Source: Oceanicola sp. 22II-s10i (GTDB lineage: Bacteria; Pseudomonadota; Alphaproteobacteria; Rhodobacterales; Rhodobacteraceae). From it: a stretch of 64,000 bases of DNA. Each line of letters begins with the position of its first letter. The first letter of the stretch is position 1. Of the stretch, positions 21,815-39,975 are shown piece after piece. The position numbers were made by a program, and so were the translations under genes. The notes beneath the pieces are model-generated. The model made no database searches. It saw nothing but the letters and a program-made list of their open reading frames with translations, and was not told the origin of the DNA. Location: the NCBI RefSeq assembly GCF_002210105.1, contig NZ_AQQU01000008.1, forward strand, positions 124,001 through 188,000, read 5' to 3'.

Positions 21815-23588
21815 CGATCCGCAGCTTCGACCCCGTTTCCCCGCCCACGTGTATCGTGATCCGCGCCTTGTGCGGTTCCGTTTCCGCATAGGGATCGCCG
21901 CCGCCGTTCAGGTTGCGGGCGAGGCGGGGAAAGCTGGTGCTGGCGACGTGCAGCCTGAGGCGATGACCCGCAGGCACCTTGTAGGCGATGTCGCGCAGGA
22001 TGACCTCGGCCCGGACCGGTTCGCCGGGGGTCATCAGGACGCTGCGGTCCATCCCCTCGCGATACCTCAGCCGCAGGACGCCTTCGGTGATCAGCAGGGA
22101 ATTGCCCTGCGGGTCGACATCCGTCAGGCGCAGGATCAGGTCAGTGTCGGGCACGTCCGCGGTCAGGCTCATGTCGGCAAAGGCCGGACCCGCGATGCTC
22201 AGCGGCGTATCGAGGGGCTGGCTGGAGAGCACAAGCAGGTCGTCGCGCCCCTCGATCTCGTTCTGAAAGACCGGTCCCATGCGCAGGTCCGGCTGGCCGG
22301 TGCAGCAGATGTTGCCGCCGACCGACGGCACCGGATTGGCGGGGTCTGATGTGTAGCTCAGATCGCCCGGCTGGGTCGGCGCGTCCGACAACCCTTCCGC
22401 GCCCAGAAAGACGACCTGTTCCGCCGTGCCTTCCGGCGGCCAGCTCTCCGCGTCGCGCCATTCGTTCGCGCCCAGCATGTAGTAACGGACCGGCGGCAGG
22501 TCCGGGGCAGGGCCGCTGCGCAGGTGGTGGTCCATGACCTCCAGGAACAGCGCCTCCATGTCGATCCATTGCGCGGGGTCGAGGGTCAGGTCGCCGATCC
22601 GCCCTTCCTGCAGCTGCCAGCCCAGACCGCAGTGCAGCGCGGGCAGGATCATCACCGTCCCGTCGGCCCCTGTCTCGCGCATCTGCTGGGCCAGCATCAG
22701 ACTTTCGCGGGCGCGGTCATACCAGCCGTCGACCATCAGGAAGGGCGTAGCGAACCGTTCGTCCCCTGCGATGAAATTGCTCCGCTCCCAGTAGGCCGCG
22801 TCGTCGTAATGGTCGAGCATGATGCGGAACTCGGTCGGGTCCGCGCGGAACCGGGCCACCGCGTCGCGGACGGGCAGGGAGGCGAGGCCGGCGGCGTAGT
22901 CGATCTGTGGCAGGCCCATCCGGTCTGGCGTCTTGCCGCCCGCCTCGGAAAACCAGCCGAAGGCCGAGGCGAGGTCGAGGATCCCGCCCTCGAACGCGCC
23001 GAAGTAGGAATAGGTCCCGCCCAGCCGTCCGATCGCACCGCCCGCGCCGAGCGGGATCATCGCCCGGTGCGCGGGGTGGCGCTGCGTGGCCAGCATCACC
23101 TGCGTTTCACCAAGCGCCGAGCAGCCGATCGTGCCGACCTTGCCGTCCGACCAGCCCTGTGCCGAGATCCAGTCGAGCGTCGCCGCCGCGTCCGTCGGGT
23201 CGTCGGCATAGGGCGTGAAGACCCCTTCGCTGGCGTAGCGGCCGCGCATGTCCTGAACGACGACCGCGTAACCTTCGGCGGTGAACCGGCGGATCCAGTG
23301 CAGCGCCTCGCCGAAGCGTCGCTTGCCGTAGGGCAGGCGCATCATGATGGCGGGGAGCTTGGTGCCCTCCGCGCCATCAGGCAGATAGATGTCGGTCGCC
23401 AGATGCACGCCGTCCGCCATCGCGATCCGCACCTCGGGCAGGCGGGTGCCGCCGACATCGGCGGCGAAGCGGCGGAACTCCACCTCGGCCTTGGCGCCGC
23501 GCAGGAGGGTAACGATCCGGTTCCGCTGCCAGACCGCCCCGGCTGCCAGAGCGCCGATGACACAGGCGAGGACAATCCACTTCATCAC
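21795..23588 (-). CDS. CocE/NonD family hydrolase (X-Pro dipeptidyl-peptidase-like), membrane-anchored
   Basis: 597 residues. An N-terminal hydrophobic anchor or uncleaved signal (MKWIVLACVIGALAAGAVW) is followed by the alpha/beta-hydrolase core: MADGVHLATDIYLPDG, the oxyanion region MMRLPYGKRR, VVQDMRGRYASEG, the nucleophile Ser in GTIGCSALGETQ, Asp in MVDGWYDRA and His in LPALHCGLGW. A C-terminal jelly-roll (FADMSLTADVPDTDLILRLTDVDPQGNSLLITEG) completes the CocE/NonD architecture. The family cleaves esters or amides such as acylated amino acids. Its position next to the phosphopantetheinyl transferase and NRPS genes suggests processing of the product, or self-resistance, on the periplasmic side; this is inference. 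Confidence 0.85.
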   Translation of the reverse strand: MMKWIVLACVIGALAAGAVWQRNRIVTLLRGAKAEVEFRRFAADVGGTRLPEVRIAMADGVHLATDIYLPDGAEGTKLPAIMMRLPYGKRRFGEALHWIRRFTAEGYAVVVQDMRGRYASEGVFTPYADDPTDAAATLDWISAQGWSDGKVGTIGCSALGETQVMLATQRHPAHRAMIPLGAGGAIGRLGGTYSYFGAFEGGILDLASAFGWFSEAGGKTPDRMGLPQIDYAAGLASLPVRDAVARFRADPTEFRIMLDHYDDAAYWERSNFIAGDERFATPFLMVDGWYDRARESLMLAQQMRETGADGTVMILPALHCGLGWQLQEGRIGDLTLDPAQWIDMEALFLEVMDHHLRSGPAPDLPPVRYYMLGANEWRDAESWPPEGTAEQVVFLGAEGLSDAPTQPGDLSYTSDPANPVPSVGGNICCTGQPDLRMGPVFQNEIEGRDDLLVLSSQPLDTPLSIAGPAFADMSLTADVPDTDLILRLTDVDPQGNSLLITEGVLRLRYREGMDRSVLMTPGEPVRAEVILRDIAYKVPAGHRLRLHVASTSFPRLARNLNGGGDPYAETEPHKARITIHVGGETGSKLRIVTLPDG

Positions 23589-23656: not shown

Positions 23657-24361
23657 GTGACCCACGAATTCCCGATCCATCTCTGGCGGCTGACCGGGCC
23701 GGACGACGCGGTCGCCCGGATGGCCGCGCACCTGTCGGAGGACGAGGCGGCGCGCGCGGCGCGGTTCGTCTTTGACCGGGACCGGCGGGCCTATATCCTC
23801 GGGCGCGGGCGTCTGCGTGAAATCCTCGGGGCCGAGATGGGGCGCGCGCCCGCTGCGGTGCGGTTCGGCTATGGCGCCCATGGCAAGCCGTTCGTCACGG
23901 GTGGCCCATGGTTCAACCTGAGCCATTCCGACGGCATCGCCTGCCTCTCGCTTCATCCCTCGATGGATTTCGGCCTGGATATCGAGGCCTTTCGCCAGAT
24001 CGAGGACGGTGTGGCCGAGCGCTTCTTCTCGGCCACCGAATATGCGAGTCTCTCCGCGCTGCCTTCCGATCAATGGACGGCGGGCTTCTTCCGCTGCTGG
24101 ACGCGGAAAGAGGCGGTGGTCAAGGCCATGGGCGACGGGCTGTCGATCCCGCTCGACGCTTTCGACGTGACGCTGCGCCCCGGCGACGCGCCGCTGATGA
24201 CGCGCCTCGACCCGGCGCTCGGACAGGCGGCGGACTGGCAGCTCGCGCATTTCGAACTGGGCCCCGACATGGTCGGTGCGCTGGCGGTCAGGGCGCCGGG
24301 CGAGGTCACGCTGAGATGCGTCGACTGTCCGCCCGGCCTGCATTTTCACGCGCCCGCCTGA
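23657..24361 (+). CDS. 4'-phosphopantetheinyl transferase, Sfp-type
   Basis: 234 residues from GTG at 23657; no in-frame ATG precedes it. Sfp-type motifs are all visible: RAYILGRGRLREIL, PWFNLSHSDG, LDIEAFRQI (Asp and Glu bind magnesium), and FFRCWTRKEAVVKAMGDGL. It transfers the phosphopantetheine arm of CoA to the conserved Ser of carrier domains, which the four carrier domains encoded just downstream on the other strand require. The 3' end overlaps the NRPS gene by 16 bases tail to tail. This dedicated transferase is strong support that the assembly line is functional. Confidence 0.92.
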   Translation: MTHEFPIHLWRLTGPDDAVARMAAHLSEDEAARAARFVFDRDRRAYILGRGRLREILGAEMGRAPAAVRFGYGAHGKPFVTGGPWFNLSHSDGIACLSLHPSMDFGLDIEAFRQIEDGVAERFFSATEYASLSALPSDQWTAGFFRCWTRKEAVVKAMGDGLSIPLDAFDVTLRPGDAPLMTRLDPALGQAADWQLAHFELGPDMVGALAVRAPGEVTLRCVDCPPGLHFHAPA

Positions 24362-27126
24362 GTTTCCCCGAGAAACGCTTCGATCTCGGCGGCCATGCCC
24401 TCCACCCCGATCCGGCGATCGCGCAGGACCTGCACGCGGTCCAGATGCACCGTCTTCAGCTTGTCCCCGGCCACGACCCGTTCCCAGCCGATCGACGGGC
24501 TGAACCAGTCGCCGCGCGGCGAGGCGTTGGTGACGATGTGCAGCACCGGGAAATCGACCGGCGCGGCGCGGTAGCTGTCGCGCATCCGGGTGACGAAGGC
24601 GATGTAGCGCTCCTGGTCGGCCTCCAGATCCGTCTGGCGGACACGGTCCACCAGCCCTAGGGCGCTGGCCAACCGCAGCACGCCGGTCGCGCGGACGATG
24701 CGGTAGGAACCGAGGAAGGCCGCGAGCGACAGCTCGCCGTTCCGGACGGCCCGGAGACGGTTGCGCAACGCGTGGATCTTCTCGCGCCACTTCGCCGAGG
24801 GCGAGCGTTCGAGGTCCTCGACATAGCTCATTTCCCAGACGTCCTTCATCACGACGCCCGCGATCTCGGCCCCGTCGGCCTGCAGATGCCGCGCGGCCTC
24901 CAGCGCAAGGTTGCCGTGCACGCAGTTGCCGTAGAGCAGGTAAGGCCCCTCGGGCTGCGCACGCCGGACGATCTTGGCATAGTCGGCGGCGATCTCGGTG
25001 AAGGGCCGCTCGGTCAGGTCCAGCTTGCGCCCGCTTTCGTATTCGCGGACGCAGGTGACCTTGCGCTTGTGCGAGCCGATGGTCGACAGCACCAGCCCAG
25101 TCGCGGCGTTGTTCACCACCACCAGCGGCTGACCCTCGCCGGTCTTGCCGAGGCGCATGATCTGCCAGTCGTCCGTGGGCGCGTCCTCGGTCGCCGTCCC
25201 GCCGCGCGCGTCGAGCTTGGCGCTGATCAGCCGGGCGAGATCGCCCAGCGTCGGGTTCTCGTAGACCTGCGTCACGTCCAGCGCCACGTCCCAGCGGTCG
25301 CGGATGCGCGACAGCTGCCTGAGCACCAGAACGGAGTGGCCGCCGAGGTCGAAGAAATGCGCGTCGGCGGTGACGTCGGTCAGGCCGAGGATGTCTTTCC
25401 AGTCCGCCTGCAGCGCGGTCAGCACCTCCGGCCGTGCCGTGGCGGTCCGCACGACTTCCGTGGCGCGAGAGGGCACACGCAGCAGCGTCCGGTTCACCGC
25501 GCCCGTGGATGTCCGGGGGAAGCCGCCGAGCAGGCTGATGCCGGTCAGGCCCTGCGCGTCAGGGTTGGTGGCCAACGTGTCCATGATCCTGCCCGGCAGA
25601 TCCTCCAGCGGCACCGTGCCGGTGTCGCCCGGCACGACGAAGCCAAAGAAGGCGTCGGCGGTCCGCACCACGGCGGCCTCGCGCACCATCGGGATCGCGG
25701 TCAGGGCCTGTTCCAGCGCGGCAATCGCGCGGCGGTCGCCCTGACGGCGTTCGGCCAGATGCTTGGGCAGGGGCAGTTCGGACAGCTTGGCCTGCGGCGA
25801 GGCGAAGGCGGTTTCGAACGCCCCCTGCGCCAGTTCCAGGATCGCCTGCGCGGTTTCGGTGTCGAACAGCTCGTTCGAATATTCCAGCACCATCTGCCAG
25901 CCGGTCGGACGGCCCATGACGGCAAGGCTCAGGTCATAGATCGCCCCCGGCGCATGCGAGGGCGAGGAGACGAGGGCGAAGCCGCCGTAGTCCTTGCTCT
26001 CCATGAACACGTTCTGGAGGTTGAAGTTGATCGAGATGAGCGGCGTGCGCGACGGATCGCGGGCCGGGTTCATCCGTTCGACCAGCGCGTTGAAGGGCAT
26101 CGACTGATGCGACAACGCGCCCTGCACGACCTTGCCCGCGCGGGCGGTGTGATCGGCGATGGTGCTGTCGGGTTTCGCCTCGAACCGCAGGACGAGGTTG
26201 TTGATGAACACGCCGATCAGCGTGTCGAGGTCGGAATCCAGCCGCCCGGCGATCTGGGTGCCGAAGAGGATGTCCTGCGCCTCGCTCATCCGGTGCAGAC
26301 AGGCGCTGAAGATGCCGGTGCCGTAGGCGAAGGTCGACACGCCCGCCGCCTGCGCCGCCGCATGCAGCCGGTCGCCGAAGCCGTCGTCCATCGAGGCGGC
26401 CAGCTTGGACACACCGGTGCCGCGCACGGCGGGACGCGGGCGATCTGGCTCGATCTCGAAATAGGTCATGCCGTCGAGCGTTTTCAGCCAGTAGGCGCTT
26501 TCCTCCTCCAGCACGCCGGAGGCGAGGTATTCCTTCTGCCACAGCGCGAAGTCGCCGTATTGCAGCGGCAGGTCGGGCAGGTCGGGCTGGCGGCCTTCCT
26601 CGTAGGCCTGCGCCGCCGTGCCGATCTCGTGCCCCAGCACGCGGATCGAGAAGCCGTCGAAGACGCTCTGGTGGAAAACGTAGGTCAGCAGCGCGCGGTC
26701 GGCGCTGAGGCGGATCAGCGTGGCGCGCAGCAGGCCGGGCTGGCCGAGGTCGAAGGGCCGCGCCGCGAACTCGTGGGCGATCTCCTCGATCTTGGCGGCC
26801 TGCTGGTCCGCCGGCACCGCTCGGATGTCGACGAGGCCGAGGCGGAAGGGAACGTGCTCCACCACCTGCTGCATCGGCGTCCCGTCGACCTCGACAAAGC
26901 GGGTGCGCAGGATTTCGTGCCGGTCGACGACGTTCTGGAACGCGCGTTCAAGGTTCGCGGCCTGCAGATCGCCCCGGACTTCCCACCGGACGGCGACGTT
27001 GAGCGAGGGGTTGCCCGGCTTCATCTCGTTCAGGAACCAGCACCGCGTCTGCGTGGTGCTCAGCGGGAATTCCGCGATGATGTCCTGCTCGGTGACCGGC
27101 GTGCGGTCGAAATCCTTGGCCATCAT
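24346..27126 (-). CDS. NRPS termination module: C* - A remnant - T - TE
   Basis: 926 residues. Domain order: condensation (about 15-445), a fragment equivalent to the C-terminal subdomain of an adenylation domain (about 465-550, VREAAVVRTADAFF then A10-like FPRTSTGAVNRTLL with the catalytic Lys replaced by Val), carrier domain (Ser598 in FFDLGGHSVLVL), thioesterase (about 655-920). Peculiarities: the C motif is HQSVFDG (152-158), so the catalytic second His is Gln; the TE nucleophile motif is GNCVHG (Cys735) rather than GxSxG; His894 may be the TE base. The start codon lies in ATGATG overlapping the stop of the upstream gene, so it is coupled to the 3261-residue protein and should receive its chain and release it. 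Confidence 0.9.
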   Translation of the reverse strand: MMAKDFDRTPVTEQDIIAEFPLSTTQTRCWFLNEMKPGNPSLNVAVRWEVRGDLQAANLERAFQNVVDRHEILRTRFVEVDGTPMQQVVEHVPFRLGLVDIRAVPADQQAAKIEEIAHEFAARPFDLGQPGLLRATLIRLSADRALLTYVFHQSVFDGFSIRVLGHEIGTAAQAYEEGRQPDLPDLPLQYGDFALWQKEYLASGVLEEESAYWLKTLDGMTYFEIEPDRPRPAVRGTGVSKLAASMDDGFGDRLHAAAQAAGVSTFAYGTGIFSACLHRMSEAQDILFGTQIAGRLDSDLDTLIGVFINNLVLRFEAKPDSTIADHTARAGKVVQGALSHQSMPFNALVERMNPARDPSRTPLISINFNLQNVFMESKDYGGFALVSSPSHAPGAIYDLSLAVMGRPTGWQMVLEYSNELFDTETAQAILELAQGAFETAFASPQAKLSELPLPKHLAERRQGDRRAIAALEQALTAIPMVREAAVVRTADAFFGFVVPGDTGTVPLEDLPGRIMDTLATNPDAQGLTGISLLGGFPRTSTGAVNRTLLRVPSRATEVVRTATARPEVLTALQADWKDILGLTDVTADAHFFDLGGHSVLVLRQLSRIRDRWDVALDVTQVYENPTLGDLARLISAKLDARGGTATEDAPTDDWQIMRLGKTGEGQPLVVVNNAATGLVLSTIGSHKRKVTCVREYESGRKLDLTERPFTEIAADYAKIVRRAQPEGPYLLYGNCVHGNLALEAARHLQADGAEIAGVVMKDVWEMSYVEDLERSPSAKWREKIHALRNRLRAVRNGELSLAAFLGSYRIVRATGVLRLASALGLVDRVRQTDLEADQERYIAFVTRMRDSYRAAPVDFPVLHIVTNASPRGDWFSPSIGWERVVAGDKLKTVHLDRVQVLRDRRIGVEGMAAEIEAFLGETQAGA

Positions 27127-30100
27127 TTGGCTCCTCCACGTCCCGCGCGGCGGGCGCCGGCACGGAAATCCTTGAGCGAGGGTTTCGCCGGTCCGTCGGT
27201 CGAGCCGCCGCGCCCGTCATGGAACGCCGCCAGTTCGCGGATCGAGGGATGGGCGAACATGTGCCGTGCCTCAAGGTTCAGACCCGCGTTCAGCATCCGC
27301 GCGGCGATCCGGAAGACGGCCAGCGAGTCGACGCCGAGGGCGAAGAGCGTGTCGGTCACGCCGACCCGGTCGCGGCCCAGCACCTCGCCCCAGATCGCGG
27401 CGATCCTGCGCTCGGTCTCGGTCTCGGGCTCCGCCGCCTCGCGCAGTGGGGTGACGCTGGCGGTGTCCTGCGGATCGGGCAGCGCCTTGCGGTCCAGCTT
27501 GCCGTTGCCGGTCTGGGGCAGCGCGCTGAGCATCACCCAGGCCCGCGGGATCATGTAGTCCGGCAGCACCTCGGCCAGCTTCGCGGTCAGCTCCGCGCCC
27601 TCGGGCGCAGCACCGTCTTCGGCCACGACATAGCCCACGAGCTGCTTGTCGCCCGATCCGCGCGCCCGCAGGTCGACGGCCGCCTTGTCGACGCCGGGGA
27701 TGGCGCGCAGGGCGGTTTCGATCTCGCCCAGTTCGATCCGGAAACCCCGCAGCTTGACCTGCGTGTCGATCCGGCCCAGCACCTCGACCTCGCCATCCGG
27801 GCGGCGGCGGGCCAGGTCGCCGGTGGCGTAGAGCCGCCGGGTCTGCCCTGCGACCGTGATGTCGCGGAAGGCCTTGTCGGTCAGGTCGGGGCGGCCGTGA
27901 TAGCCGATGGCCAGACCGTCGCCGCCGATGTTCAGCTCGCCCGTCGCGCCCTCGGGCACCGGCTGGCCCGCGCTGTCGAGGATGACGAGCTGCGTGTTGG
28001 CGATCGGGTGGCCGATGGTGATCGGCTCGCCCGGCAGGATGCGGCGGACGGCGGACCAGATGGTCGTCTCGGTCGGGCCGTACATGTTCCACAGCTCGGC
28101 GCCCTGTTGCGTCAGGCGTGCGGCGAGGTCGGCAGGCAGGGGTTCACCACCGCAGAGCATGCGGAACCCTGCATTGGGTGTGAAGCCCGCCGTCAGGACC
28201 ATGTCCCAGAGGGTCGGGGTCGCCTGCATGACGGTCACGTCGCCCTGGTTCAGACGCTCGACCAGCTTGAAGCCGTCGATGACGTCCTCGGTCCGGGCGA
28301 TGACCACGCCCGCGCCGACCGACAGCGGCAGGAACAGTTCCAGCGCGGCGATGTCGAACATGACGGTGGTCACGGCCAGCATCCGGTCGGCGGCGGTCAG
28401 GCCCGGCTCGGCGGCCATCGAGGTGAGAAAGTTCACCGCCGCACGGTGCGGGACCGCGACGCCCTTGGGCGTGCCGGTGGAGCCGGAGGTGAAGATGACA
28501 TAGGCCGCATCCTCCGCCGACACCGTGACCGGCGCCGGGCGCGTGCCCGCCTGTGCCTCGGAGGCGAGGATCACCGGTTTGCCTGCGTCGGCGGCAAAGT
28601 CCGCGTTCTCGGGCGTGTCGGTGAGGACGGCTGCGACCTCGGCGGTCTCGGCGATCTGTTTCAGACGGGCGGAGGGCTGGCGCGGGTCGAGCGGCACGTA
28701 GGTGTGCCCGGCCCTGAGGATCGCAAGCAGCCCGGCCAGCATGTCGCGGCCACGGGTCATCGACAGCGCGACGCGCGCGTTCCGGCCCGGCACCTGCGCC
28801 TGAACCAGCGCGGCGAGGGCGTCGGCGCGGGTGTTCAACTCGGCATAGGTCATCCGGCCCGCCGCGTCCTCGACGGCCATCGCATCGGCGAACTGCGCCA
28901 TGCGGGTGCCGAGGAAGGTGGTCAGCGTCGCCTCGCGGTCGAACGCCATCTGCACGCCGTCGATCACGGCATCCGCCTCGTCCCCGCCGGTCAGCGACAG
29001 GGTCGCGACCTGCTGGTCGGTCGAGGCGGCAATCTGGGTCAGGATGCTCTCGTAGGCGCGGGTCCAGCCCGCCACGGTTGCGGCATCCAGAACGTCGGCG
29101 TTGTAATGCGCCTCGATCCGCAGCCCCTGGGGCGTTTCGACCACGTTGAAGAACAGGTCGAAGTTCAGGCCCGTCTTGGCATTGGCATGGAAGCTGGCGT
29201 CGAGGCCCGACATGCCGGACGCATCGCTCTGCTTTTCGAGGTTGAACTCGATCTCGGTCAGCGGCAGGCGGTTGATCTGGCGCGGGATGGCCAGGTCGCG
29301 GACGATGGCGCCCAGCGTGGTGTCGCCATGCTCGAAGGCTTCGTTCAGTCGGGCGCTGACCAGTTTCAGGTGCTCGGCCACGCTGACGTTTTCCGCGATA
29401 GTCGCGCGGACCGGCAGGAAGTTCACGCAATGCCCGACCAGCGCCGGGTTCGGCAGGTTCTGCTGCTGCGCGGTCGGCACGCCGAGCACGACGTCGCGGG
29501 TGCCGCTGAGGCGGTGGACCAGCATCTGCATCGCCCCGAAGGCGGTCGCGAACAGCGTGCAGCCCTGCTTGGCCCCGGCCTTGCGGGCGGCTTTCACGGT
29601 GTCGAGGCCGATCTCGTGGAACACGGTCCCGGCGGTATGGCTGCGCCGTTCGGGGCGCGGCTGGACCAGCGGCAGGTCGGGCAGGGCGACCGGCGTGTCG
29701 TAGACCGATTTCCAGTAGGCCATGGTCGAGGGGTTCGCCATCCGCGCGGCCTCGGCCTGCGCATGCGCGGCGAAGGAGGGCGCGGGGGCGAGGCCCGCCT
29801 GACGGCCCTCATGTGCGGCGGAATAGAGCCGGGCGAGATCGTCCAGCATCACGCCGAAGGACCAGCCGTCGGCGACGATGTGGTGCGCGCAGATCACCAT
29901 GACATGCCGGTCGGTGCCCAGCTTGGCAAGGAAGGCGCGGATCGGCGCTTCGGCGGTGATGTCGAAGCCGATGGCCGAGTCAGCGGCGATGGCATCGGCA
30001 AGTGCTGCCTGCGGATCGGCCTCGGCGCTCAGGTCGATCTCTCCGATCGGGTTGGTCTCGGGCGCCATCACATCGACGGTGGACCCGTCGCGCGCGAAGC

Positions 30101-33100
30101 GCAGCCGCAGCGCGTCGTGGCGCGCGATCACGGCGTCGAAGGCGGTCTGGAGCGCGGCCTTGTCCAGCGTCCCGTTCATGACGAGCGATGTGCTTTCGTT
30201 GAACGCGGCGGCGGCGGCACCGCCCATCTGGTGGCTCATCCAGATCTCGCGCTGGCCCTCGGTCAGCGGCACGCCCTTGAGCGGCTCGAACGGTTTCGCG
30301 GCGGGCAGCGGGGCGGCGGGATCCTTGCGCAGATCGGCGAGGATGCCGACCGACAGCAGCGAATCCAGCGCCGTCTCGAAGGCCGCGACGACGCGGTCGC
30401 AATCGGCGTCGGTGTGCGCGGTGGTGATGAAGCCGCAGAAGCCGTCCATCACATGCACCCCCTCCATCCGCATCAGCGGATAGAGCAGCGATGCGCGGGG
30501 ATCGGCCTCGGTCACCTGGATGACGAACCAGCTGGAATAGGTCTCGACCAGTTGCGGCAGGCCGCGCGCGGCCATAGCGGCGTTCATCCGGCCGGCCACA
30601 TCGGCGCAGCGGTCGGCGGCGCCTTTCCACAGGCGGTCGCCCTCGGCGATCATGAAGTCGAGCGAGGCGTCGACGGCGGCCAGCACCAGCGGATGCCGCA
30701 CGAAGGTGCCCGCGAAGAAGGTCGGGATCGCCTCGGGCTTGCTGTCGTCGCCGTAATTCCAGTTGCCGCCGTCGAGCGAGTCCATGAACCGCGCGTCACC
30801 GGCCAGCACGCCGACGGGCATGCCGCCGCCGACGACCTTGCCGTAGGTGGCCATGTCGCCCTTGATGTCCCAGACCCCCTGCATGCCGCGCGCATGGGTG
30901 CGGAAGCCGGTGACGATCTCGTCCATCACCAGCGCGGCACCGCCGTCGCGGGTCAGCCTGCGGATCTCGCGGACGAAATCGGCGGGACGGTGGGCCGGAT
31001 GGCGGCTTTGCACCGGTTCGACGATCACGGCGGCGATGTCGCGCATGTTGTCGCGGATCCAGTCCAGCGCCTCGGGTGCGCCGTAGGTCAGCACCTTCAT
31101 GTTGGCGAGGCTCGACCGCGGGATGCCGGGGGCCGAGGGCAGGGCGCTCGGGTCCGTGCCCCTGGCGCGGCCCTTGACCAGAACCTCGTCGAACTGGCCG
31201 TGGTAATCCTTGTCGAAGACCACGATCAGGTCGCGGCCCGTCACCGTGCGGGCGACACGCATCGCGGCCATGACGGCCTCGGACCCGGTGTTACAGAAGG
31301 TGACGCGCTCGTGGCCCACGAAACGGGCGAACTTCTCGGCCAGCGGCCCGGCGAGCTCGGCCTGCGGTCCGATGGGAAAGCCCTTTTCCATCTGACGCGC
31401 CACGGCCTCGGTCACGAAGTCCGGCGAATGGCCGAATGCGGTCTGGCCGAAGCCGTTGACCACGTCGACGAAGGTGTTGCCGTCCACGTCATGCAGGTAG
31501 GCGCCCTTGGCGCGCTCGGCGACGATGGGGAACACCAGTTCCTTCCAGTCGGCGCGGAAGCCGGCCGCGGTACGCGGGTCGGCATGGACCTTGCGGTGCT
31601 TCGCGGCATAGGCCTTGGAGCCGGGATGCTTGGCCGAATAGCGGGCGGCGAGGTCACGGGCAAAGGCCACCTGCGCCTCGGTCATCGTGCCGCCGGTCAC
31701 GTTGGGGCCGCGCCCGAACTTGAGGCCGGCGGGCTTGTCCTCGGCCTCGGCGGGCTTCGCCGGGGCATTCGCCGCCACGGGGGCGGGTGCGGGCGCTGCG
31801 ACGGGTTGCGGCGCGGGCTGCGCGGCGGGTGCCGCCACCGGCTGCGGTGCCGCGGCCTGTGCGGGGACGCCCGATCCGAGCGCCTGAAGCTGCTGCGCGA
31901 ACACCGCCTGGATGGCGTCGATCTGCGCCTTCATGATGCCTTCCAGCCCCGCGACGGGCGCAGAGGCTGTGGCGGCAGGTACGGCAGCCGGCATCGGCTG
32001 GGCCACGGGCGCGGGCGCGACAGGCGCGGGCTGCGCCGCGACAGGCTGCGGCGCGGGTTCCGGTGCCGCGTTGGCGGGCATCTCGGCATCGAGATGCTGG
32101 GCCAGCAGCGTGATGGTCGAAACATCCGCAAGCAAGCGGCGGAAGCCGATCTCAACGCCATACTGCCGCCCGATGGCCTGGCTGACCTGACCCATGAAGA
32201 GCGAGTCGAATCCAAGTTCGAGGAAGGTCTCTCCGGCGACATCCGTCCCGATATCCTCGCCCGACATATCCGCCAGCAGGGCGGCGATCTCGGCCACCAG
32301 ACGCGGCATGCGGTCGGCGGGCGCGGCGGCGGGGACGGAATTCGGAGACAAGTCGGTCATGACGGAACCTTCCGAGGGTTGAACAACCGGAGCGACGGGC
32401 GCGGGCACTGCCGCGGGTGCGTCCTCCTTGGGGGCGATCCAGTAGCTTTGGCGCTGGAACGGATAGGGGGGCAGCGGAACCTTGCGCGATCCGACCGGGC
32501 CCTGACGGGTCCAGTCGACGGGCAGGCCCGCGCTCCACAGTGAAGAGACCGCAGCGGCCATCGAGAAGTCATCAGAGACCGGTTGGGTATGATCCGGCAA
32601 CGTTTGAACCAAGCCTCGATGGCTGCTGCGGTCCAAGGTCTGGGCGGCGAAAGCCGAAAGGGTGCGGCCTGGGCCGACCTCGACAAACACCGGAGACCTT
32701 GTCTGGGTGACCGCTTCGAGAGCGGCCTGAAAGTTGACGCAGGCGCGTGCCTGATCCGCCCAGTAGGCCGGATCGCAGGCTTCGGCTGCGGTCAGTTCGC
32801 GCCCGGTGACCGCCGAGACGATCGGACGGTCGGGGGCGTTCAACGTGATGGCGGCGGCGGCTTCGCGCAGGGGCGCGCCGACCGGGTCCATCATCTGGGA
32901 ATGGAAAGCATGCGAGGTGTGCAGCCGCTGGCAGGCGATATCCGCCGCGCTGAGCCGCGCCTCGAGCGCGTCGATGGCCGCGAAGGGACCGGCCACGACC
33001 TGCAGCTTGGGCGCGTTGCGCGCGGCAAGGTCGGTGCTGTCGTCGAGGAAGGGCTTAAGCGCCTCCATCGGGGCACGCACGGACAGCATCGCGCCGCCGG

Positions 33101-36100
33101 GCTGGTCCTGCATCAGGTGGCCACGTTTCGCGATCAGCGTCAGCGCGTCCTCGAAGGACATCACGCCGGTCAGCGCGGCGGCGACGAATTCGCCGACCGA
33201 ATGGCCGATGCAGGCGGTCGGTTCGATCCCGCGCGACTGCCAGAGCTTGGCCAGCGCGAATTCGGTCAGGAACAGCGCGGGCTGGGTGATCCACGTCTCG
33301 CGCAGCGCGGCAGCCGCCTCGTCCTGCGACAGGTCGCGGCCGAGGATCAGGTTGCGCATGTCGCGGCCCATGATCGGTTCGAGGATCTCGGCCCCCCGGT
33401 CGATCCAGCGGGCGTATTCGGGTTCGCTGTCGTAAAGGTCCGCACCCATGCCGGGGTATTGCGAGCCCTGGCCGGGGAAGAGGAACACGACGTCCGAAAC
33501 CTCGTCCTTCACGGCGGCCTTCGGCGCTTTCACCTCGCGCAAAGCGGTGACCAGCGCGGGACGGTCCGCGCCGGCGGTCACGGCACGCCAGTCGTGCACG
33601 CGGCGGCCCTGCTGGAGCGTATGTGCCACGTCGGGCAGGTAGAGCGCGGCATCCGCCTCGATCCGGTCGGCGAGGCTCCGCGCCATCTCGACGACCGCCT
33701 CGGGCGATTTGGCCGAAAGCGGCAGGAAGGTCATCCCGCAGCGCGGCGCGTCACGGTCGGCCAGCGCGGGGGCTTCCTCGATGATCGCATGGGCGTTGGT
33801 CCCGCCCACGCCGAACGAGCTGACACCGGCGATCCGGGCGCCGTCGCTGACCCATTCGGTCGGCGCCTCGGGCACGAAGAACGGCGTGTCGCCAAGGTCG
33901 ATGCGCGGGTTCAGCCCACGGAAATGCGCAATCGGCGGCAGTTCGCGTTTCTGCATCATGAGCGCCAGCTTGATGACGCTGACCACGCCCGCCGCCGCGT
34001 CCAGATGGCCGACGTTACCCTTGACCGAGCCGAGCGCGGTCCGCGCGCCGGTCGTGCCGAAAGCCTGCTTCAGCCCGGACACCTCGATGGGATCGCCGAG
34101 CGGCGTCGCGGTGCCGTGGCATTCGACATAGCCGACCTGGTCCGGCGTGACCCCGGCATCGGCCTGCGCCATGCGCACCGCCGCCGTCTGGCCCTGCACG
34201 GACGGGGCCGTGAACGACATCTTGGCCGCGCCGTCGTTGTTCAGCCCGACGCCCCGGATCACCGCGTGGATGTGGTCGCCGTCACGCAGCGCATCGCCGA
34301 GGCGCTTGAGCACGACCGCACCCGCGCCATGGCCGAAGACCGTGCCGCCCGCATTCGCGTCGAAAGGACGGCACAGGCCGTCGGGCGAGGCCATGCCGCC
34401 TTCGAGGAAAAGGTAGCCGCGTTTCTGCGGGAAGGTGATCGACACTCCGCCCGCCATCATCACGTCGGCATCGCCCGCGCGCAGCGCCTCGACGGCCATG
34501 TTGATCGCGACCAGCGATGTCGAACAGGCGGTGTTGACCGAGATCGCCGGACCGGTGAGCCCGAGGCGATAGGCCACGCGGGTGGCCGTCAGGCTCTGAT
34601 CATTGCCGGACAGCACGCTGTAGTCGAGCTGGAAGCCGGTGGTGAATTTGCGCGCCTCGGCGCGGTTCGCCAGCAGGTTCTCCAGCATGTAGGTGGACAT
34701 CGAGGAACCGGCGAAGATGCCGATCTTGACCTGCGTGCGGTCGGGGTCGATCCCGGCGTTGTCCAGCGCCTCCTGGCAGACTTCGAGGAAGACGCGGCCC
34801 TGCGGGTCGGTCAGCTCGGCCTCGCGCGGGCGCATGTTGAAGAACTTGGCGTCGAACTTGTCCGGGTCGCGCATGATCGACCGCGCGGGGACGTAATTCG
34901 ATCCGGCGCGGGTGGCGGCGTCATAGCTGTCCTCGGCCTCGGACGGATCGAAGCGCTCGATGACGCTGCGGCCCTCGCGGATGACGGACCAGAAGTCGTC
35001 CAGCTTGATGCCGCCCGGCAGGCGCGCGGCCATGCCGACGATGGCGACGGCGCGGTCGTCTGTGTCGAGGGCCCTGGGCGCGGCGGTGTCGGCTGCGGGC
35101 GCGGTGCCCGCCATCTCGGACAGGCGCGCGGACAGGTCGCCGAGGCGCGGCGTGTCGAACATAAGCGCGATGTCGAAACGGACACCGAGCGCGGTTTCGA
35201 TCATGGCATGCGCCTCGATCAGCTGGATCGAGGTGCCGCCGAGGTCGAAGAACGTGTCGCCCTGACCGGGCGTGCCGCAGTCGAGGACCTTCTGCCAGAT
35301 CGCCGCGATCTCGGACTGGACGCCCTTGCGGGAGACGGCGGAAACCTCCGGCTTTTCAGGCGCTTCCTCGACGCTCCTGCGCAGGGCCTTGCGGTCCAGC
35401 TTGCCTGCCTCGTTCAGCGGAAACGCCTCCAGCAGCACCACTTCGCGCGGAAATACGTCGCGGGCGATGGTGCGGGCCGAGGCGTCCTTCAGCGCAGCGA
35501 TGAAGGCGGGCTTGTCCGTGACCGGGGCCTCGGGAATGACGAAGGCGGCCAGCGATAGCGGGCGGTCGGCACGGCGGATCAGTTCGACGGCGGCGTCGCG
35601 GACGCCGGGCAGGTCGCGGAAGATATGTTCGACGCCGTCCACCTCGACCCGGTGGCCGGCCATCTTGATCTGCCGGTCGACGCGGCCCATGAACTCGTAG
35701 CGGGCATCGGGACGGCGGCGGCCAAGGTCGCCGGTCAGGTAAAGCGTGCCGTCGCGACCCGGACGCGGATCGGCGATGAACGCCTTGGCTGTCAGGTCGG
35801 GCCGGTTGTAATAGCCCTGCGCCAGCCCGACGCCGCCGATGGCGATCTGGCCGGGTTCGCCGTCGGTGACCACGCACAGGTCTTCGTCCAGCAGCACGAT
35901 TTCTTCGCCCGGCATGGTGCTGCCGATCGGGATCGCACCCGCGCGGGTGTCGTCCAGCGTGACCGGGCAAGAGGTGCTCCAGACGCAGCTCTCGGTCGGG
36001 CCGTAGGTGTTGACCAGCGTGATGTCGGGCCAGGCCGTCAGCAGCTTTTCCGCCATCGGCGCGGACATGACATCGCCGCCCGAGATGCTCAGCCGCACGG

Positions 36101-36908
36101 TTTCGAACGCCTCGATCCGGTGCGCGATGGCCAGATGGTGCAGGCCCGCATACCACAACGTGACGGTGACGCGGTCGCGGGTCATCGCCTCGGCCACGTC
36201 CGGGATCGCGGGGGTCGGGGTTTCAACGACCGACACGGCCGCGCCGGACATGAGCGGAACCAGCAGCTGGTAGAGCACCCCGTCGCAGGCCAGCGTGGCC
36301 GAACACAGCGAAACATCCGCCGGGGTCATCCGCACCTCGGGGTTGCCGTGGGCCATCGCCACGATGGCGCGCTGCGTGACGATCACGCCCTTGGGGGTGC
36401 CCGTAGTGCCGGAGGTGTAGAGCACGCAGGCCGCGTCGCTGCCCGCCGCATCCGGCCAGTCGCGCGGGGCGACGTCGTCGTCGCAGTCCTCGACGGTCAG
36501 GACGGGCACGTCCCGCGGATCGAAGACGGCGTGCGTGGCGGCGTCGTGTTCGCGCGGACAGACCGCCGCGCGGAAGGGGATGTCACCGGCGATGAAGCCG
36601 ATGCGTTCCGGCGCGAAGGCCGGGTCCATCGGCACATAGACCGCGCCGAGCCGCAGAATGCCGAGCAGCCCCGCCACCGCCTCGAGCGAGCGGGTGGCAT
36701 AGAGCGCGACGTGATCGCCCGGACCGACACCGAGCGCCTGCAGACGCGCCGCGACCTGCAGGGCCGCGCCATGCAGTTCGGCATAGCTCCACGACCGTCC
36801 CCGACCGAACAGGGCGGGCGCCTCGGGGGCCGTTTCGACGTGCCTGCGCACGCTCTCGAAGACCGAGAGGGCGGGGTCGAAATCTGCCGTCTGTTCTGCC
36901 TTGGTCAT
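27123..36908 (-). CDS. Hybrid NRPS-PKS: A-T-KS-AT-ACP-AMT-C-A-T
   Basis: 3261 residues. A1 (15-510; LYTSGTTGTPKG 163-174, Asp209, A10 Lys503); T1 (Ser560); KS (620-1045; Cys795, His931, His968); AT (1140-1430; Ser1237 in GHSVGE, HAFH at 1333-1336 indicating malonyl-CoA); ACP (Ser1569); a Pro/Ala-rich linker (1611-1728); class-III PLP aminotransferase (1755-2180; Lys2024 in TYGKVVGGGM); C (2205-2640; HHIVADG 2342-2348); A2 (2665-3140); T2 (Ser3195). There is no KR, DH or ER, so the keto group is left for amination, as in mycosubtilin-type synthases. A1 has no C domain and loads the starter. By eye the A2 pocket reads D-I-L-T-L-G-M-I-W, close to the glycine code. All catalytic residues listed are intact. 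Confidence 0.93.
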   Translation of the reverse strand: MTKAEQTADFDPALSVFESVRRHVETAPEAPALFGRGRSWSYAELHGAALQVAARLQALGVGPGDHVALYATRSLEAVAGLLGILRLGAVYVPMDPAFAPERIGFIAGDIPFRAAVCPREHDAATHAVFDPRDVPVLTVEDCDDDVAPRDWPDAAGSDAACVLYTSGTTGTPKGVIVTQRAIVAMAHGNPEVRMTPADVSLCSATLACDGVLYQLLVPLMSGAAVSVVETPTPAIPDVAEAMTRDRVTVTLWYAGLHHLAIAHRIEAFETVRLSISGGDVMSAPMAEKLLTAWPDITLVNTYGPTESCVWSTSCPVTLDDTRAGAIPIGSTMPGEEIVLLDEDLCVVTDGEPGQIAIGGVGLAQGYYNRPDLTAKAFIADPRPGRDGTLYLTGDLGRRRPDARYEFMGRVDRQIKMAGHRVEVDGVEHIFRDLPGVRDAAVELIRRADRPLSLAAFVIPEAPVTDKPAFIAALKDASARTIARDVFPREVVLLEAFPLNEAGKLDRKALRRSVEEAPEKPEVSAVSRKGVQSEIAAIWQKVLDCGTPGQGDTFFDLGGTSIQLIEAHAMIETALGVRFDIALMFDTPRLGDLSARLSEMAGTAPAADTAAPRALDTDDRAVAIVGMAARLPGGIKLDDFWSVIREGRSVIERFDPSEAEDSYDAATRAGSNYVPARSIMRDPDKFDAKFFNMRPREAELTDPQGRVFLEVCQEALDNAGIDPDRTQVKIGIFAGSSMSTYMLENLLANRAEARKFTTGFQLDYSVLSGNDQSLTATRVAYRLGLTGPAISVNTACSTSLVAINMAVEALRAGDADVMMAGGVSITFPQKRGYLFLEGGMASPDGLCRPFDANAGGTVFGHGAGAVVLKRLGDALRDGDHIHAVIRGVGLNNDGAAKMSFTAPSVQGQTAAVRMAQADAGVTPDQVGYVECHGTATPLGDPIEVSGLKQAFGTTGARTALGSVKGNVGHLDAAAGVVSVIKLALMMQKRELPPIAHFRGLNPRIDLGDTPFFVPEAPTEWVSDGARIAGVSSFGVGGTNAHAIIEEAPALADRDAPRCGMTFLPLSAKSPEAVVEMARSLADRIEADAALYLPDVAHTLQQGRRVHDWRAVTAGADRPALVTALREVKAPKAAVKDEVSDVVFLFPGQGSQYPGMGADLYDSEPEYARWIDRGAEILEPIMGRDMRNLILGRDLSQDEAAAALRETWITQPALFLTEFALAKLWQSRGIEPTACIGHSVGEFVAAALTGVMSFEDALTLIAKRGHLMQDQPGGAMLSVRAPMEALKPFLDDSTDLAARNAPKLQVVAGPFAAIDALEARLSAADIACQRLHTSHAFHSQMMDPVGAPLREAAAAITLNAPDRPIVSAVTGRELTAAEACDPAYWADQARACVNFQAALEAVTQTRSPVFVEVGPGRTLSAFAAQTLDRSSHRGLVQTLPDHTQPVSDDFSMAAAVSSLWSAGLPVDWTRQGPVGSRKVPLPPYPFQRQSYWIAPKEDAPAAVPAPVAPVVQPSEGSVMTDLSPNSVPAAAPADRMPRLVAEIAALLADMSGEDIGTDVAGETFLELGFDSLFMGQVSQAIGRQYGVEIGFRRLLADVSTITLLAQHLDAEMPANAAPEPAPQPVAAQPAPVAPAPVAQPMPAAVPAATASAPVAGLEGIMKAQIDAIQAVFAQQLQALGSGVPAQAAAPQPVAAPAAQPAPQPVAAPAPAPVAANAPAKPAEAEDKPAGLKFGRGPNVTGGTMTEAQVAFARDLAARYSAKHPGSKAYAAKHRKVHADPRTAAGFRADWKELVFPIVAERAKGAYLHDVDGNTFVDVVNGFGQTAFGHSPDFVTEAVARQMEKGFPIGPQAELAGPLAEKFARFVGHERVTFCNTGSEAVMAAMRVARTVTGRDLIVVFDKDYHGQFDEVLVKGRARGTDPSALPSAPGIPRSSLANMKVLTYGAPEALDWIRDNMRDIAAVIVEPVQSRHPAHRPADFVREIRRLTRDGGAALVMDEIVTGFRTHARGMQGVWDIKGDMATYGKVVGGGMPVGVLAGDARFMDSLDGGNWNYGDDSKPEAIPTFFAGTFVRHPLVLAAVDASLDFMIAEGDRLWKGAADRCADVAGRMNAAMAARGLPQLVETYSSWFVIQVTEADPRASLLYPLMRMEGVHVMDGFCGFITTAHTDADCDRVVAAFETALDSLLSVGILADLRKDPAAPLPAAKPFEPLKGVPLTEGQREIWMSHQMGGAAAAAFNESTSLVMNGTLDKAALQTAFDAVIARHDALRLRFARDGSTVDVMAPETNPIGEIDLSAEADPQAALADAIAADSAIGFDITAEAPIRAFLAKLGTDRHVMVICAHHIVADGWSFGVMLDDLARLYSAAHEGRQAGLAPAPSFAAHAQAEAARMANPSTMAYWKSVYDTPVALPDLPLVQPRPERRSHTAGTVFHEIGLDTVKAARKAGAKQGCTLFATAFGAMQMLVHRLSGTRDVVLGVPTAQQQNLPNPALVGHCVNFLPVRATIAENVSVAEHLKLVSARLNEAFEHGDTTLGAIVRDLAIPRQINRLPLTEIEFNLEKQSDASGMSGLDASFHANAKTGLNFDLFFNVVETPQGLRIEAHYNADVLDAATVAGWTRAYESILTQIAASTDQQVATLSLTGGDEADAVIDGVQMAFDREATLTTFLGTRMAQFADAMAVEDAAGRMTYAELNTRADALAALVQAQVPGRNARVALSMTRGRDMLAGLLAILRAGHTYVPLDPRQPSARLKQIAETAEVAAVLTDTPENADFAADAGKPVILASEAQAGTRPAPVTVSAEDAAYVIFTSGSTGTPKGVAVPHRAAVNFLTSMAAEPGLTAADRMLAVTTVMFDIAALELFLPLSVGAGVVIARTEDVIDGFKLVERLNQGDVTVMQATPTLWDMVLTAGFTPNAGFRMLCGGEPLPADLAARLTQQGAELWNMYGPTETTIWSAVRRILPGEPITIGHPIANTQLVILDSAGQPVPEGATGELNIGGDGLAIGYHGRPDLTDKAFRDITVAGQTRRLYATGDLARRRPDGEVEVLGRIDTQVKLRGFRIELGEIETALRAIPGVDKAAVDLRARGSGDKQLVGYVVAEDGAAPEGAELTAKLAEVLPDYMIPRAWVMLSALPQTGNGKLDRKALPDPQDTASVTPLREAAEPETETERRIAAIWGEVLGRDRVGVTDTLFALGVDSLAVFRIAARMLNAGLNLEARHMFAHPSIRELAAFHDGRGGSTDGPAKPSLKDFRAGARRAGRGGAK
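31725..32078 (-). other. Pro/Ala-rich linker encoded between ACP and aminotransferase
   Basis: Codons 1611-1728 of the NRPS-PKS encode repeated PQPVAA and PAPVAP blocks, interrupted by one predicted amphipathic helix (GLEGIMKAQIDAIQAVFAQQ). The DNA is a low-complexity repeat, prone to length change between strains. The helix between flexible arms may dock the ACP against the aminotransferase. Confidence 0.7.
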
Positions 36909-37514: not shown

Positions 37515-39035
37515 CTATCGGCCGGTGCGGAGGAAGGACCGAAGTTCGCCCCAGAACGGGCGGTCGAAGATCGCCGTGGCCAGAACATATACCGGCACCG
37601 CGAAAAAGGCCGAAAGCAACGCGGATGCCAGAGGCGGAAGGCCCGATGCCGGCAGGATCCTTGCGCACAGCAACAGGGTGCCGAGCCCGAAGGCCAGGGG
37701 AGCCACCGTCGACCGGAGCGCGCGCAGCAATCCCTTTCGGCGAACACCTGCGAAACGTTCGAACATCCACAGCGTCGCGGTCGTTATCGCGATGGCCGAG
37801 ATCACCTGTGCGATAGCGATCGGGTACAGGCCGAAATGCGCGGCAACAAACGTCGGCACCAGTGCTCCGGCAAAGATCCCGGCGGTGAAGGCGGGCAGGC
37901 GGCGCGTCTCGCCGACAATCGACATCAGCGGTTCGATCACGATTCCGGGCAGTGAGATCAGCGGCACAAGGGCAAGGATCGTCACCAGTGGGGCGGCGGG
38001 AAGCCAGTCCTCGCTCAGCAATCCGTGGATGATGTTGTTGCTTTCGACCATCAGCCACAGCAGCACCGGTGCGCCGGCGACCATCATCACCTTGACGTGG
38101 CGGCGGACCTGACGGCCGATGCGTGCCGCGCTTTCACTGGCCGGTCCGCCATCGCGCGCGGTGCGGAAATGGGCCCAAGCCAGGATCTGACCGGGGACCG
38201 AGATGATTTCGTAGGCGGCCGCGACCAGCCGGTCCGCCGCGCGGTAGTAGCCGACAGCGACCGGCCCGAGATAGCCGCCGATGATGAAGGTTCCGATGTG
38301 CATGCGCAGTGTCAGGAGCATCCGGCTGACGAAGATCTGACCGGAGAACCGCAGCAGGTCGCCGATCAGCGCCCGGTCCAGCCCGACGGCGGGACGCATC
38401 CCGATCGCCGCGAAGCTGATGCCGAGATGCGTGAGGCTCATGGCGAGGCGTCCCCAGACCAGCGAAAGCACGCCGTGGCCGTCCAATAGCAGCGCGAGCG
38501 TCACGGCGAGTCCGACCAGTTCGCCCGCGATTTCGCACAGGGCCGAGGTCTTGATCCGATGGCGCCACACCATCAGCCCGTTCCGGGCGGACGACAGGTT
38601 GGCCAGCACGATCCAGCCCGAGAACAGCGCCATCAGGCTGACCGTCTGGTCCGATCCGCCCAGCAGTGAGACGCCGCCCGTCGCGGCCAGTCCGATGGCG
38701 CCGAAGGCGAGGCCGCTGAGGATCGCGATGAACTGGACCTGCCGGGGGACGAGGTCGTCGCCGCCCCATGCCATGATGAAGGGCGCCCAGCCGACCTCTG
38801 CCGCGCGCAGCATGACCATGGCAAAGGCCGAGACCAGTGCGAAGGCTCCGAAATCCGCGGGCCCGAGCACGCGTGCGGCCACGATGAAGATGGCGAACTG
38901 CGCGCCCTGGGACACCACGCGGTCCATGACGGCAAATGCGCCGTCACCGAGCGCCTTGCGGCCGCCCTGTGGCGTGTTGGTGTCGATGGCAGCGTGCGTG
39001 GTCATGGATTCGCCGAAAAGTAACGTCCTTCTCAT
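37515..39035 (-). CDS. Oligosaccharide flippase family protein (Wzx-like)
   Basis: 506 residues with about 12-14 transmembrane helices, beginning with the family block GDGAFAVMDRVVSQGAQFAIFIVAARVLGPADFGAFALVSAF and continuing with DLLRFSGQIFVSRMLLTLRMHIGTFIIGGYLGPVAVGYYRAADRL. This is the polysaccharide-exporter fold of the MOP superfamily, which flips undecaprenyl-linked repeat units to the periplasm. Starts at 39035 and 39005 are both possible; neither has a good ribosome binding site. It is divergent from the priming transferase gene. A drug-exporter role for the neighbouring NRPS product is conceivable but less likely than Wzx. Confidence 0.82.
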   Translation of the reverse strand: MRRTLLFGESMTTHAAIDTNTPQGGRKALGDGAFAVMDRVVSQGAQFAIFIVAARVLGPADFGAFALVSAFAMVMLRAAEVGWAPFIMAWGGDDLVPRQVQFIAILSGLAFGAIGLAATGGVSLLGGSDQTVSLMALFSGWIVLANLSSARNGLMVWRHRIKTSALCEIAGELVGLAVTLALLLDGHGVLSLVWGRLAMSLTHLGISFAAIGMRPAVGLDRALIGDLLRFSGQIFVSRMLLTLRMHIGTFIIGGYLGPVAVGYYRAADRLVAAAYEIISVPGQILAWAHFRTARDGGPASESAARIGRQVRRHVKVMMVAGAPVLLWLMVESNNIIHGLLSEDWLPAAPLVTILALVPLISLPGIVIEPLMSIVGETRRLPAFTAGIFAGALVPTFVAAHFGLYPIAIAQVISAIAITTATLWMFERFAGVRRKGLLRALRSTVAPLAFGLGTLLLCARILPASGLPPLASALLSAFFAVPVYVLATAIFDRPFWGELRSFLRTGR

Positions 39036-39288: not shown

Positions 39289-39963
39289 TTGGCATACGAC
39301 ATCTTTTCAAATGACGCTGACGTCATTGCGCGACACGGCGTCCGCCCGGTGCGGACCTCGGTCTCGAAGCTCGTGTTCGACAAGGCGTTCGCCCTCATGG
39401 CGCTGACGCTCCTGTTCCCGCTGCTGATCGTGATCGCGGTTGTGATCCTTATCGCCGACGGCCGGCCGATCTTCTATTCGCAGGCGCGGATAGGTCAGAA
39501 CGGCCGACGGTTCAGGTGCTGGAAGTTCCGCACCATGATCAAGAAGGCCGACGCCGCGTTGGAAGCCGCGCTCAGCAAGGACCCGGAGCTGAAGGCCGAA
39601 TGGCTGGCCACGCGCAAGCTGCGCAACGATCCGAGGATCAACGCGATCGGGCGAATCCTGCGCAACACCAGCCTCGACGAACTGCCGCAGTTCTGGAACG
39701 TGCTGCGCGGCGACATGTCGATCGTCGGACCGCGCCCGGTGGTGCCCGATGAACTGAGCTATTACGGCCAGTTCGCCGGGGTCTACCTGTCCGTCCGGCC
39801 CGGTCTGACCGGGGCGTGGCAGGTCAGCGGCCGCAGCAACACGACCTACGACCAGCGGGTTGCGATGGACGTCGAGTATGTCGGAAACGCAGGGTTCTGG
39901 CGGGACATGTCGATCGTGGTCAAGACCGTGCGCGTGGTGCTCACGCGCGATGGCGCGATCTAG
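39289..39963 (+). CDS. Undecaprenyl-phosphate sugar phosphotransferase (ExoY-like priming transferase)
   Basis: 224 residues in the longest reading. One transmembrane helix (ALMALTLLFPLLIVIAVVIL) precedes the conserved catalytic domain: IFYSQARIGQNGRRFRCWKFRTM, SLDELPQFWNVLRGDMSIVGPRPV and YLSVRPGLTGAWQVSGRSNTTYDQR. It transfers a sugar-1-phosphate from UDP-sugar to undecaprenyl phosphate, the first step of repeat-unit synthesis. The start is uncertain: TTG at 39289 or GTG at 39349; an ATG at 39311 is out of frame. If the TTGACA at 39279 is a promoter, the GTG is the better start. It heads an operon with two glycosyltransferases. Confidence 0.88.
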   Translation: MAYDIFSNDADVIARHGVRPVRTSVSKLVFDKAFALMALTLLFPLLIVIAVVILIADGRPIFYSQARIGQNGRRFRCWKFRTMIKKADAALEAALSKDPELKAEWLATRKLRNDPRINAIGRILRNTSLDELPQFWNVLRGDMSIVGPRPVVPDELSYYGQFAGVYLSVRPGLTGAWQVSGRSNTTYDQRVAMDVEYVGNAGFWRDMSIVVKTVRVVLTRDGAI

Positions 39964-39975
39964 GGGGGCGGAGTG

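Follow-up and report, generated by a model that had tools for sequence, protein, structure and literature searches.

A hybrid NRPS-PKS assembly line in an exopolysaccharide locus of Oceanicola sp. 22II-s10i and its possible role in glycan decoration

What does a peptide-polyketide assembly line make when it lies among the genes for a surface polysaccharide? This question is raised by a 64,000-nucleotide stretch of the 5.1-Mb genome of Oceanicola sp. 22II-s10i (contig NZ_AQQU01000008.1, positions 124,001 to 188,000; hereafter the window). Two genes in it encode a hybrid nonribosomal peptide synthetase-polyketide synthase (NRPS-PKS) with an internal aminotransferase (AMT). The original prediction, made from the sequence of the window, took the product to be a stand-alone free peptide. 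This part found no support: the line lies within an exopolysaccharide (EPS) locus, and its type of Wzx flippase is confined to genomes that carry the line. The explanation we favour, with about even confidence, is that the line makes a variable diaminoacyl-glycine unit that would decorate the repeat of a polysaccharide before export.

The steps proposed are as follows. The first adenylation domain (A1) would put a variable alpha-amino acid onto the first carrier domain (T1), the ketosynthase (KS) and acyltransferase (AT) would add one malonyl unit, and the AMT would convert the beta-ketone to a beta-amine, yielding a 3,4-diamino acyl chain. The first condensation domain (C1) would couple this chain to glycine on A2-T2. 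The second protein, with an altered condensation domain (C*), a carrier (T3) and a thioesterase (TE), would most likely add no further residue, its adenylation core being deleted. Instead, T3 and the Cys-type TE (or C* itself) would serve as an acyl transferase that moves the diaminoacyl-glycine to a sugar of a cytoplasmic lipid-linked repeat, and the decorated repeat would be flipped by the cognate Wzx and then polymerised. We place decoration before flipping mainly because of the distribution of the flippase, and propose the transfer role mainly because the TE is of the Cys type and C* is altered.

Polysaccharide genes around the line

The line is flanked on one side by the flippase, a WbaP-type initiating transferase and glycosyltransferases (GTs), and on the other by a CocE/NonD-family hydrolase, a GT4-type glycosyltransferase, a Wzc/Wzz-like protein, a Wzy-like protein and a possible glycosidase (Table 1). 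Hence an initiating phosphoglycosyl transferase, Wzx, Wzc/Wzz and GTs, all parts of polysaccharide loci, are present. The Wzy-like protein itself had no Pfam match; a Novosphingobium relative with 28% identity to it matches Wzy_C at E 9.4e-7, below the curated cut-off. The CocE/NonD hydrolase could act on the exported polymer by deacylation or transacylation; 12 of 80 related loci, the best 80 of 217 relatives from a contig scan, contain a relative of it. The WbaP-type transferase, flippase, Wzc/Wzz, GTs and possible Wzy-like protein are shared with alphaproteobacterial Wzx/Wzy EPS loci, from which the window differs by the embedded NRPS-PKS line and the flippase type that occurs with it.

At least three of seven EPS gene classes were found in 53 of the 67 related loci of at least 19 kb, and in 59 of all 80. 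None of the 16 controls, loci from the same family, reached this number, a contrast somewhat flattered by hand-picked controls and by EPS queries taken from the window and its sister loci. The controls were not devoid of such genes, with GTs in 11, Wzx-like matches in 5 and WbaP in 1; one of them (L141) is a condensation-domain match whose frame spans only 491 codons. In the genomes of four controls (L135-L138) there are different, more distantly related AMT lines, and none of the four controls contained any EPS class; L136 and L137 span the distant AMT, while L138 begins about 1 kb past it and L135 about 7 kb.

Across 198 genomes of the family, the flippase type of the window (E <= 1e-60) was found in six, all of them among the seven with an orthologous AMT (E <= 1e-235). 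The glycosyltransferase GT4a, on the other hand, occurs in 18 of the 198, namely all seven carriers of the line and 11 genomes without it (no AMT at E <= 1e-120). Of the 11 line-free GT4a loci, 8 were read; none of these 8 had a KS or AMT match within 15-20 kb, and one (L144) has GT4a, Wzc, a Wzy-like gene, a glycosidase-like gene, GT4b and WbaP. Since this Wzx is confined to carriers and GT4a loci exist without the line, the line and its own flippase look like a module added to a pre-existing, wider EPS system. Its EPS partners are retained across bacterial orders, although the gene order differs.

The main rival, which we consider unlikely, is that the line makes a free small molecule, a linear or TE-cyclised diaminoacyl-glycine serving for example as a metal binder, signal or antibiotic, and shares only regulation and location with the EPS genes. 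The line is complete, with its own phosphopantetheinyl transferase (PPTase) and TE, and shared control is possible, since a response regulator and a Crp/Fnr regulator are among its neighbours in Rhizobium. However, all six family genomes with this flippase carry the line, and its partners have been kept despite the reshuffling of gene order. Moreover, a scan of ten neighbours (13721-42194) revealed nothing recognisable as a siderophore receptor, a resistance gene or an exporter of small molecules, although a distant exporter is conceivable, as two EamA-family transporters lie at distances of about 9 and 24 kb. A stand-alone antibiotic cluster was also considered and became less probable in view of the EPS context and the flippase distribution.

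The same EPS-locus evidence could also be read to mean that the product primes, anchors or otherwise ends the polysaccharide, with one copy per chain. Sinorhizobium offers a precedent in rkpA, a PKS tied to capsule production. This is quite improbable, as the WbaP-type transferase adjoining the line already supplies a sugar primer and the product, as predicted, would be a small non-lipid molecule.

Several observations weigh against decoration of the repeat. Fewer than three EPS classes were found in 21 of the 80 loci and none in 8, in part owing to short contigs, and these counts also speak for a free molecule; four of the eight (L047, L056, L064 and L102) are full-length loci. One genome (G142, 84% complete) has the AMT and no match to this Wzx type. 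No Wza is present in the window's locus, both Poly_export matches of the genome lying outside the window, whereas Wza was found in sister loci. A dedicated acyltransferase common to the loci read was not seen, and no glycan structure or metabolite is known for the line. Nor is the line general: a close AMT orthologue occurs in 7 of the 198 family genomes, the only genome of the same genus in the sample (G192) is without the line, and an AMT at E <= 1e-120 was found in 4 of 385 genomes of the class, that of the window included.

Chemistry of the first protein and variation of its pockets

The predicted domain order, A-T-KS-AT-ACP-AMT-C-A-T (ACP, acyl carrier protein) followed by C*-T-TE, was recovered from the open reading frames and Pfam, as were the coupling of the two genes, which overlap by 4 nucleotides (ATGA), and the convergent Sfp-type gene, with its 16-nucleotide overlap. 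In gene 1, Pfam recognised two AMP-binding, three PP-binding, ketoacyl synthase N and C, Acyl_transf_1, Aminotran_3 and Condensation domains, and in gene 2 Condensation, PP-binding and Thioesterase. No ketoreductase, dehydratase, enoylreductase, methyltransferase or separate epimerisation domain was recognised by Pfam in the line. Both genes have coding-type G+C content at third codon positions (GC3; 0.89 for gene 1 and 0.91 for gene 2), and all three carriers of gene 1 have their Ser. The line contains the top-scoring ketoacyl-synthase match of the genome, and no other match has a frame large enough for several domains: the remaining 10 are in frames of 406-481 codons. One further PPTase match was found genome-wide, in a frame of 157 codons. 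Related loci from several alphaproteobacterial orders have the same domain order, so that the arrangement is unlikely to be due to chance. In one related locus (L034; G006, C36:105000-124900) an in-frame stop splits the gene 1 orthologue, so that the line there may be broken or the assembly wrong.

The chemistry first proposed for gene 1 agrees with its domains. The best PDB match of the AMT is the AMT of mycosubtilin synthetase MycA (6kfm/6kfr) with 445 bits, the next family, glutamate-semialdehyde aminomutases (GSAM), reaching 203 bits; this accords with the claimed beta-amination. The motifs GHSVG and HAFH of the AT follow the rule for malonyl specificity and point to the malonyl extension that had been suggested. 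Pocket positions of the A domains were placed by GrsA numbering, and codes were read from 65 of 75 A1 sequences (74 loci and the window, with 10 gapped rows excluded) and 78 of 79 A2 sequences. The first A1 position is Asp in all 65, by which A1 is predicted to load an alpha-amino acid, as anticipated. The full code of the window's A1, DGYLSSTVW, is not known to match any assigned code, and the starter amino acid could not be named. For A2, DILQLGMIW corresponds to glycine in the table that assigns pocket codes to amino acids, and 76 of the 78 sequences are of this type, in keeping with the Gly-like residue foreseen. By colinearity, the vicinal 3,4-diamino acid of the original prediction and a 3,4-diaminoacyl-glycine product would be expected.

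MycA has the domain order KS-AT-ACP-AMT-C-A-T. The line contains the same order, and its AMT is homologous over almost the full length, but it differs from the mycosubtilin/iturin type in its A-T starter loader with an amino-acid Asp in place of a fatty-acyl ligase, and in its C*-T-TE end without an A core, in an EPS locus. An iturin-type lipopeptide synthetase was ruled out by this loader, no fatty-acyl ligase domain preceding the PKS module. McyE and NdaF of microcystin and nodularin synthesis have an ACP-AMT-C-A-T order with beta-amination, a long PKS chain and C-methylation. By this description they share the order and beta-amination with the line, which differs by its amino-acid starter.

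The two pockets differ in how far they vary. For A1, 41 different codes were found in the 65 sequences, with 24% identity in the pocket compared with 46% in the core, whereas A2 has 89% in the pocket and 61% in the core. The two A2 exceptions, both from Novosphingobium (L100 and L114), have DALWLGGTF, which we take to be a Val-like code. The product would accordingly vary at one end and be fixed at the other, as expected if it is a group exposed at the surface on which selection varies; alternatively, the A1 variation may come from substrate drift alone, with no selection. A hypervariable starter pocket beside a fixed glycine pocket also makes the line a testable case of variation in a single building block.

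The shortened second protein

Gene 2 has no AMP-binding match by Pfam. By eye, the interval of about 90 residues between C* and T3 resembles an A-domain C-terminal subdomain. Pfam gave no AMP-binding_C match there in the window, but it gave one in an orthologue from the Sinorhizobium/Ensifer group (L089; E 4.4e-6). The structure model of the protein (mean pLDDT 84.6, pTM 0.56) has as its first structural match the C-A-T-TE module AB3403 (PDB 4zxh), compared with which gene 2 is about 390 residues shorter. In our view, a termination module stripped of its A core thus describes gene 2 best.

The catalytic positions were counted in 71 gene 2 sequences, that is, 80 loci and the window minus 10 rows (five in which the C* query matched only gene 1, one cut short and four that were actually gene 1). 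The second His of the C* motif is replaced in 56 (Gln 42, Asn 11, Tyr 3) and kept in 15, while all 75 rows of the alignment share the first His and the DG, and 71 of the 75 have the T3 Ser (2 Ala, 2 gaps). All 71 gene 2 sequences have Cys as the TE nucleophile, which rules out an ordinary thioesterase with the GxSxG Ser, Asp and His, and Asp762 is found in 69. At the position of the TE His, 43 sequences have His, 26 including the window another residue and 2 a gap. The TE model (pLDDT 92.3) is closest to NRPS/PKS thioesterases, with moderate TM-scores of about 0.5-0.6; AB3403 comes first (0.53). When searched alone against the PDB by phmmer, the TE of the window gave no match, whereas a profile of 30 sequences did; 4zxh has a Cys in the aligned TE motif. 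AB3403 further differs from gene 2 of the window in the second His of C* and in the TE His, which the window's clade has lost. The two Novosphingobium loci mentioned above have the TE motif GNHD or GAHD, nearer to ordinary thioesterases.

The invariant Cys and the replaced C* His would suit transfer of the acyl chain better than hydrolysis or elongation. Cys nucleophiles in a TE-like fold are found in the acyl shuttles SyrC and CmaE and in the thioesterases SulM and ObiF, as these are described; here such a domain is the last of the line. The intact HHxxxDG motif of the 15 remaining sequences speaks against this role, and the TE of the window's clade may be dead, its His being missing in 26 of 69 readable rows. 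The loss of this His makes the role given to the TE in the model less convincing, and the transfer may fall to C* instead.

A third residue might be condensed by C* if A1, A2 or another A domain loaded T3 in trans, and a tripeptide-like product would then be released by the TE through hydrolysis or cyclisation; we give little credence to this idea. The conserved first His, Asp and Gly of C* (75 of 75 rows), the T3 Ser and the 15 intact motifs would allow it, but gene 2 has no A core of its own and in most sequences the second His is replaced. Gene 2 might also be decaying and inactive in this strain and the line silent, given that A core, C* His and TE His are all absent in the window's clade. 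This we regard as very improbable, because the reading frame is intact with its high GC3 and because Cys735, Asp762, the T3 Ser and many C* positions are conserved across wide distances.

Spread, significance and neighbouring features

Relatives of the line were found in Rhodobacterales, Hyphomicrobiales (Ensifer, Rhizobium, Chelativorans and others), Sphingomonadales (Novosphingobium) and one metagenome-assembled genome titled Gammaproteobacteria; the closest named ones at the locus, within the best 80, are Pseudooceanicola (L040-L042), with AMTs 77-81% identical. On annotated plasmids of Jannaschia, Rhodobacter, Loktanella and two Rhizobium (replicons of 72-750 kb), the line lies within EPS gene sets. 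The plasmid of Jannaschia sp. M317 (L120) has only 71,674 bp, and the EPS and NRPS-PKS locus of about 27 kb takes up over one third of it; this location suggests horizontal spread. In rhizobial loci the nearest partners are others (pyruvyl transferase, GH16, DegT-type aminotransferase), still within a polysaccharide locus, and that of Rhizobium CCGE532 has a flippase, a sugar transferase, Wzz and export genes. Somewhat less firmly than for the window itself, we propose a scattered, wide-ranging class of alphaproteobacterial polysaccharides decorated by NRPS-PKS lines, with a strain-variable 3,4-diaminoacyl-glycine, transfer by a Cys-type TE or modified C domain, and a co-inherited flippase.

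The domains and the AMT chemistry are already known; what looks new is that the line belongs to an EPS locus. NRPS-PKS lines have mostly been mined for free natural products. A polysaccharide role could explain orphan clusters of Rhodobacterales and rhizobia that have no assigned compound, and chemists would then have to look in the polymer. If the proposal is true, linked and positively charged vicinal diamino acids join the repertoire of surface glycans, and assembly-line chemistry generates serotype-like glycan diversity. Our searches of the open-licence literature turned up neither an NRPS-PKS line described as part of an EPS locus nor, as had been stated before, a described product with this domain order. 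Hybrid NRPS/PKS or novel clusters of relatives are mentioned in three papers (PMC10584327, PMC8273931, PMC13101523), the passages of which that were available to us do not mention an EPS-linked line.

Table 1. Features of the line and its surroundings, in window coordinates
Feature	Position	Strand	Basis or remark
Possible secreted glycosidase	14858-16537	-	Weak Glyco_hydro_cc match, below cut-off; kept in two related loci
Multi-transmembrane protein, possible polymerase/ligase (Wzy-like)	16731-18209	+	8 transmembrane-like stretches
Wzz/Wzc-like chain-length regulator and tyrosine autokinase	18335-20641	+	Neighbour scan
Glycosyltransferase GT4a	20657-21814	+	Neighbour scan
CocE/NonD-family hydrolase, N-terminal membrane-anchor-like stretch	21795-23588	-	Pfam scan
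Sfp-type phosphopantetheinyl transferase	23657-24361	+	Pfam; convergent with gene 2, overlaps its end by 16 nt
Gene 2, C*-(A remnant)-T3-TE	24346-27126	-	926 aa; ORF, Pfam, structure model
TE, Cys nucleophile (GNCVHG), Asp762, without catalytic His in window's clade	24349-25149	-	Pfam, alignment, model
T3 carrier, Ser present (GGHSVL)	25225-25413	-	Pfam, alignment
Remnant of A-domain C-terminal subdomain, A core absent	25477-25761	-	By eye
C*, condensation fold, HQSVFDG with second His replaced	25762-27072	-	Pfam, alignment
Gene 1, hybrid NRPS-PKS, A1-T1-KS-AT-ACP-AMT-C1-A2-T2	27123-36908	-	3261 aa; ORF, Pfam
T2 carrier (LGVDSL)	27222-27407	-	Pfam, motif
A2, glycine code DILQLGMIW	27498-28904	-	Pfam, pocket reading
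C1, intact HHxxxDG (HHIVADG)	28974-30272	-	Pfam, motif
AMT, pyridoxal-phosphate aminotransferase of MycA AMT kind	30339-31601	-	Pfam, PDB match
ACP (LGFDSL)	32064-32306	-	Pfam, motif
AT, malonyl type (GHSVG, HAFH)	32622-33488	-	Pfam, motif
KS (TACSTS)	33759-35054	-	Pfam, motif
T1 carrier (GGTSI)	35109-35327	-	Pfam, motif
A1, starter adenylation, pocket DGYLSSTVW	35379-36863	-	Pfam, pocket reading; first Asp present
Wzx-type flippase	37515-39035	-	Neighbour scan, related loci
WbaP-type initiating sugar transferase	39289-39963	+	1 of 2 Bac_transf matches in genome
Glycosyltransferase, GT2 type	39973-40893	+	Pfam score just below cut-off
Glycosyltransferase, GT4 type	40797-42194	+	Start uncertain, overlaps GT2

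Many genomes of the family carry a second pair of NRPS/PKS-type large frames (about 2150 and 1550 codons; L126-L134, e.g. G153:C11:76000-95999), often near glycosyltransferase or flippase-like matches, and loci of this kind were used among the controls. Judging by gene length, the pair may be the NRPS-like/T1PKS hybrid that is reported for Roseibaca (PMC10584327). To the right of the EPS locus in the window, the segment 42386-60909 looks like a catabolic island. Besides a solute-binding protein, a permease and an ATPase of an oligopeptide-type ABC transporter, it encodes a PALP-type enzyme, a carbon-nitrogen hydrolase and three amidases. ARAGORN placed a tRNA-Thr at 1824-1912 on the minus strand, inside a coding-like ORF (1183-2526, GC3 0.90); this is probably a false call.

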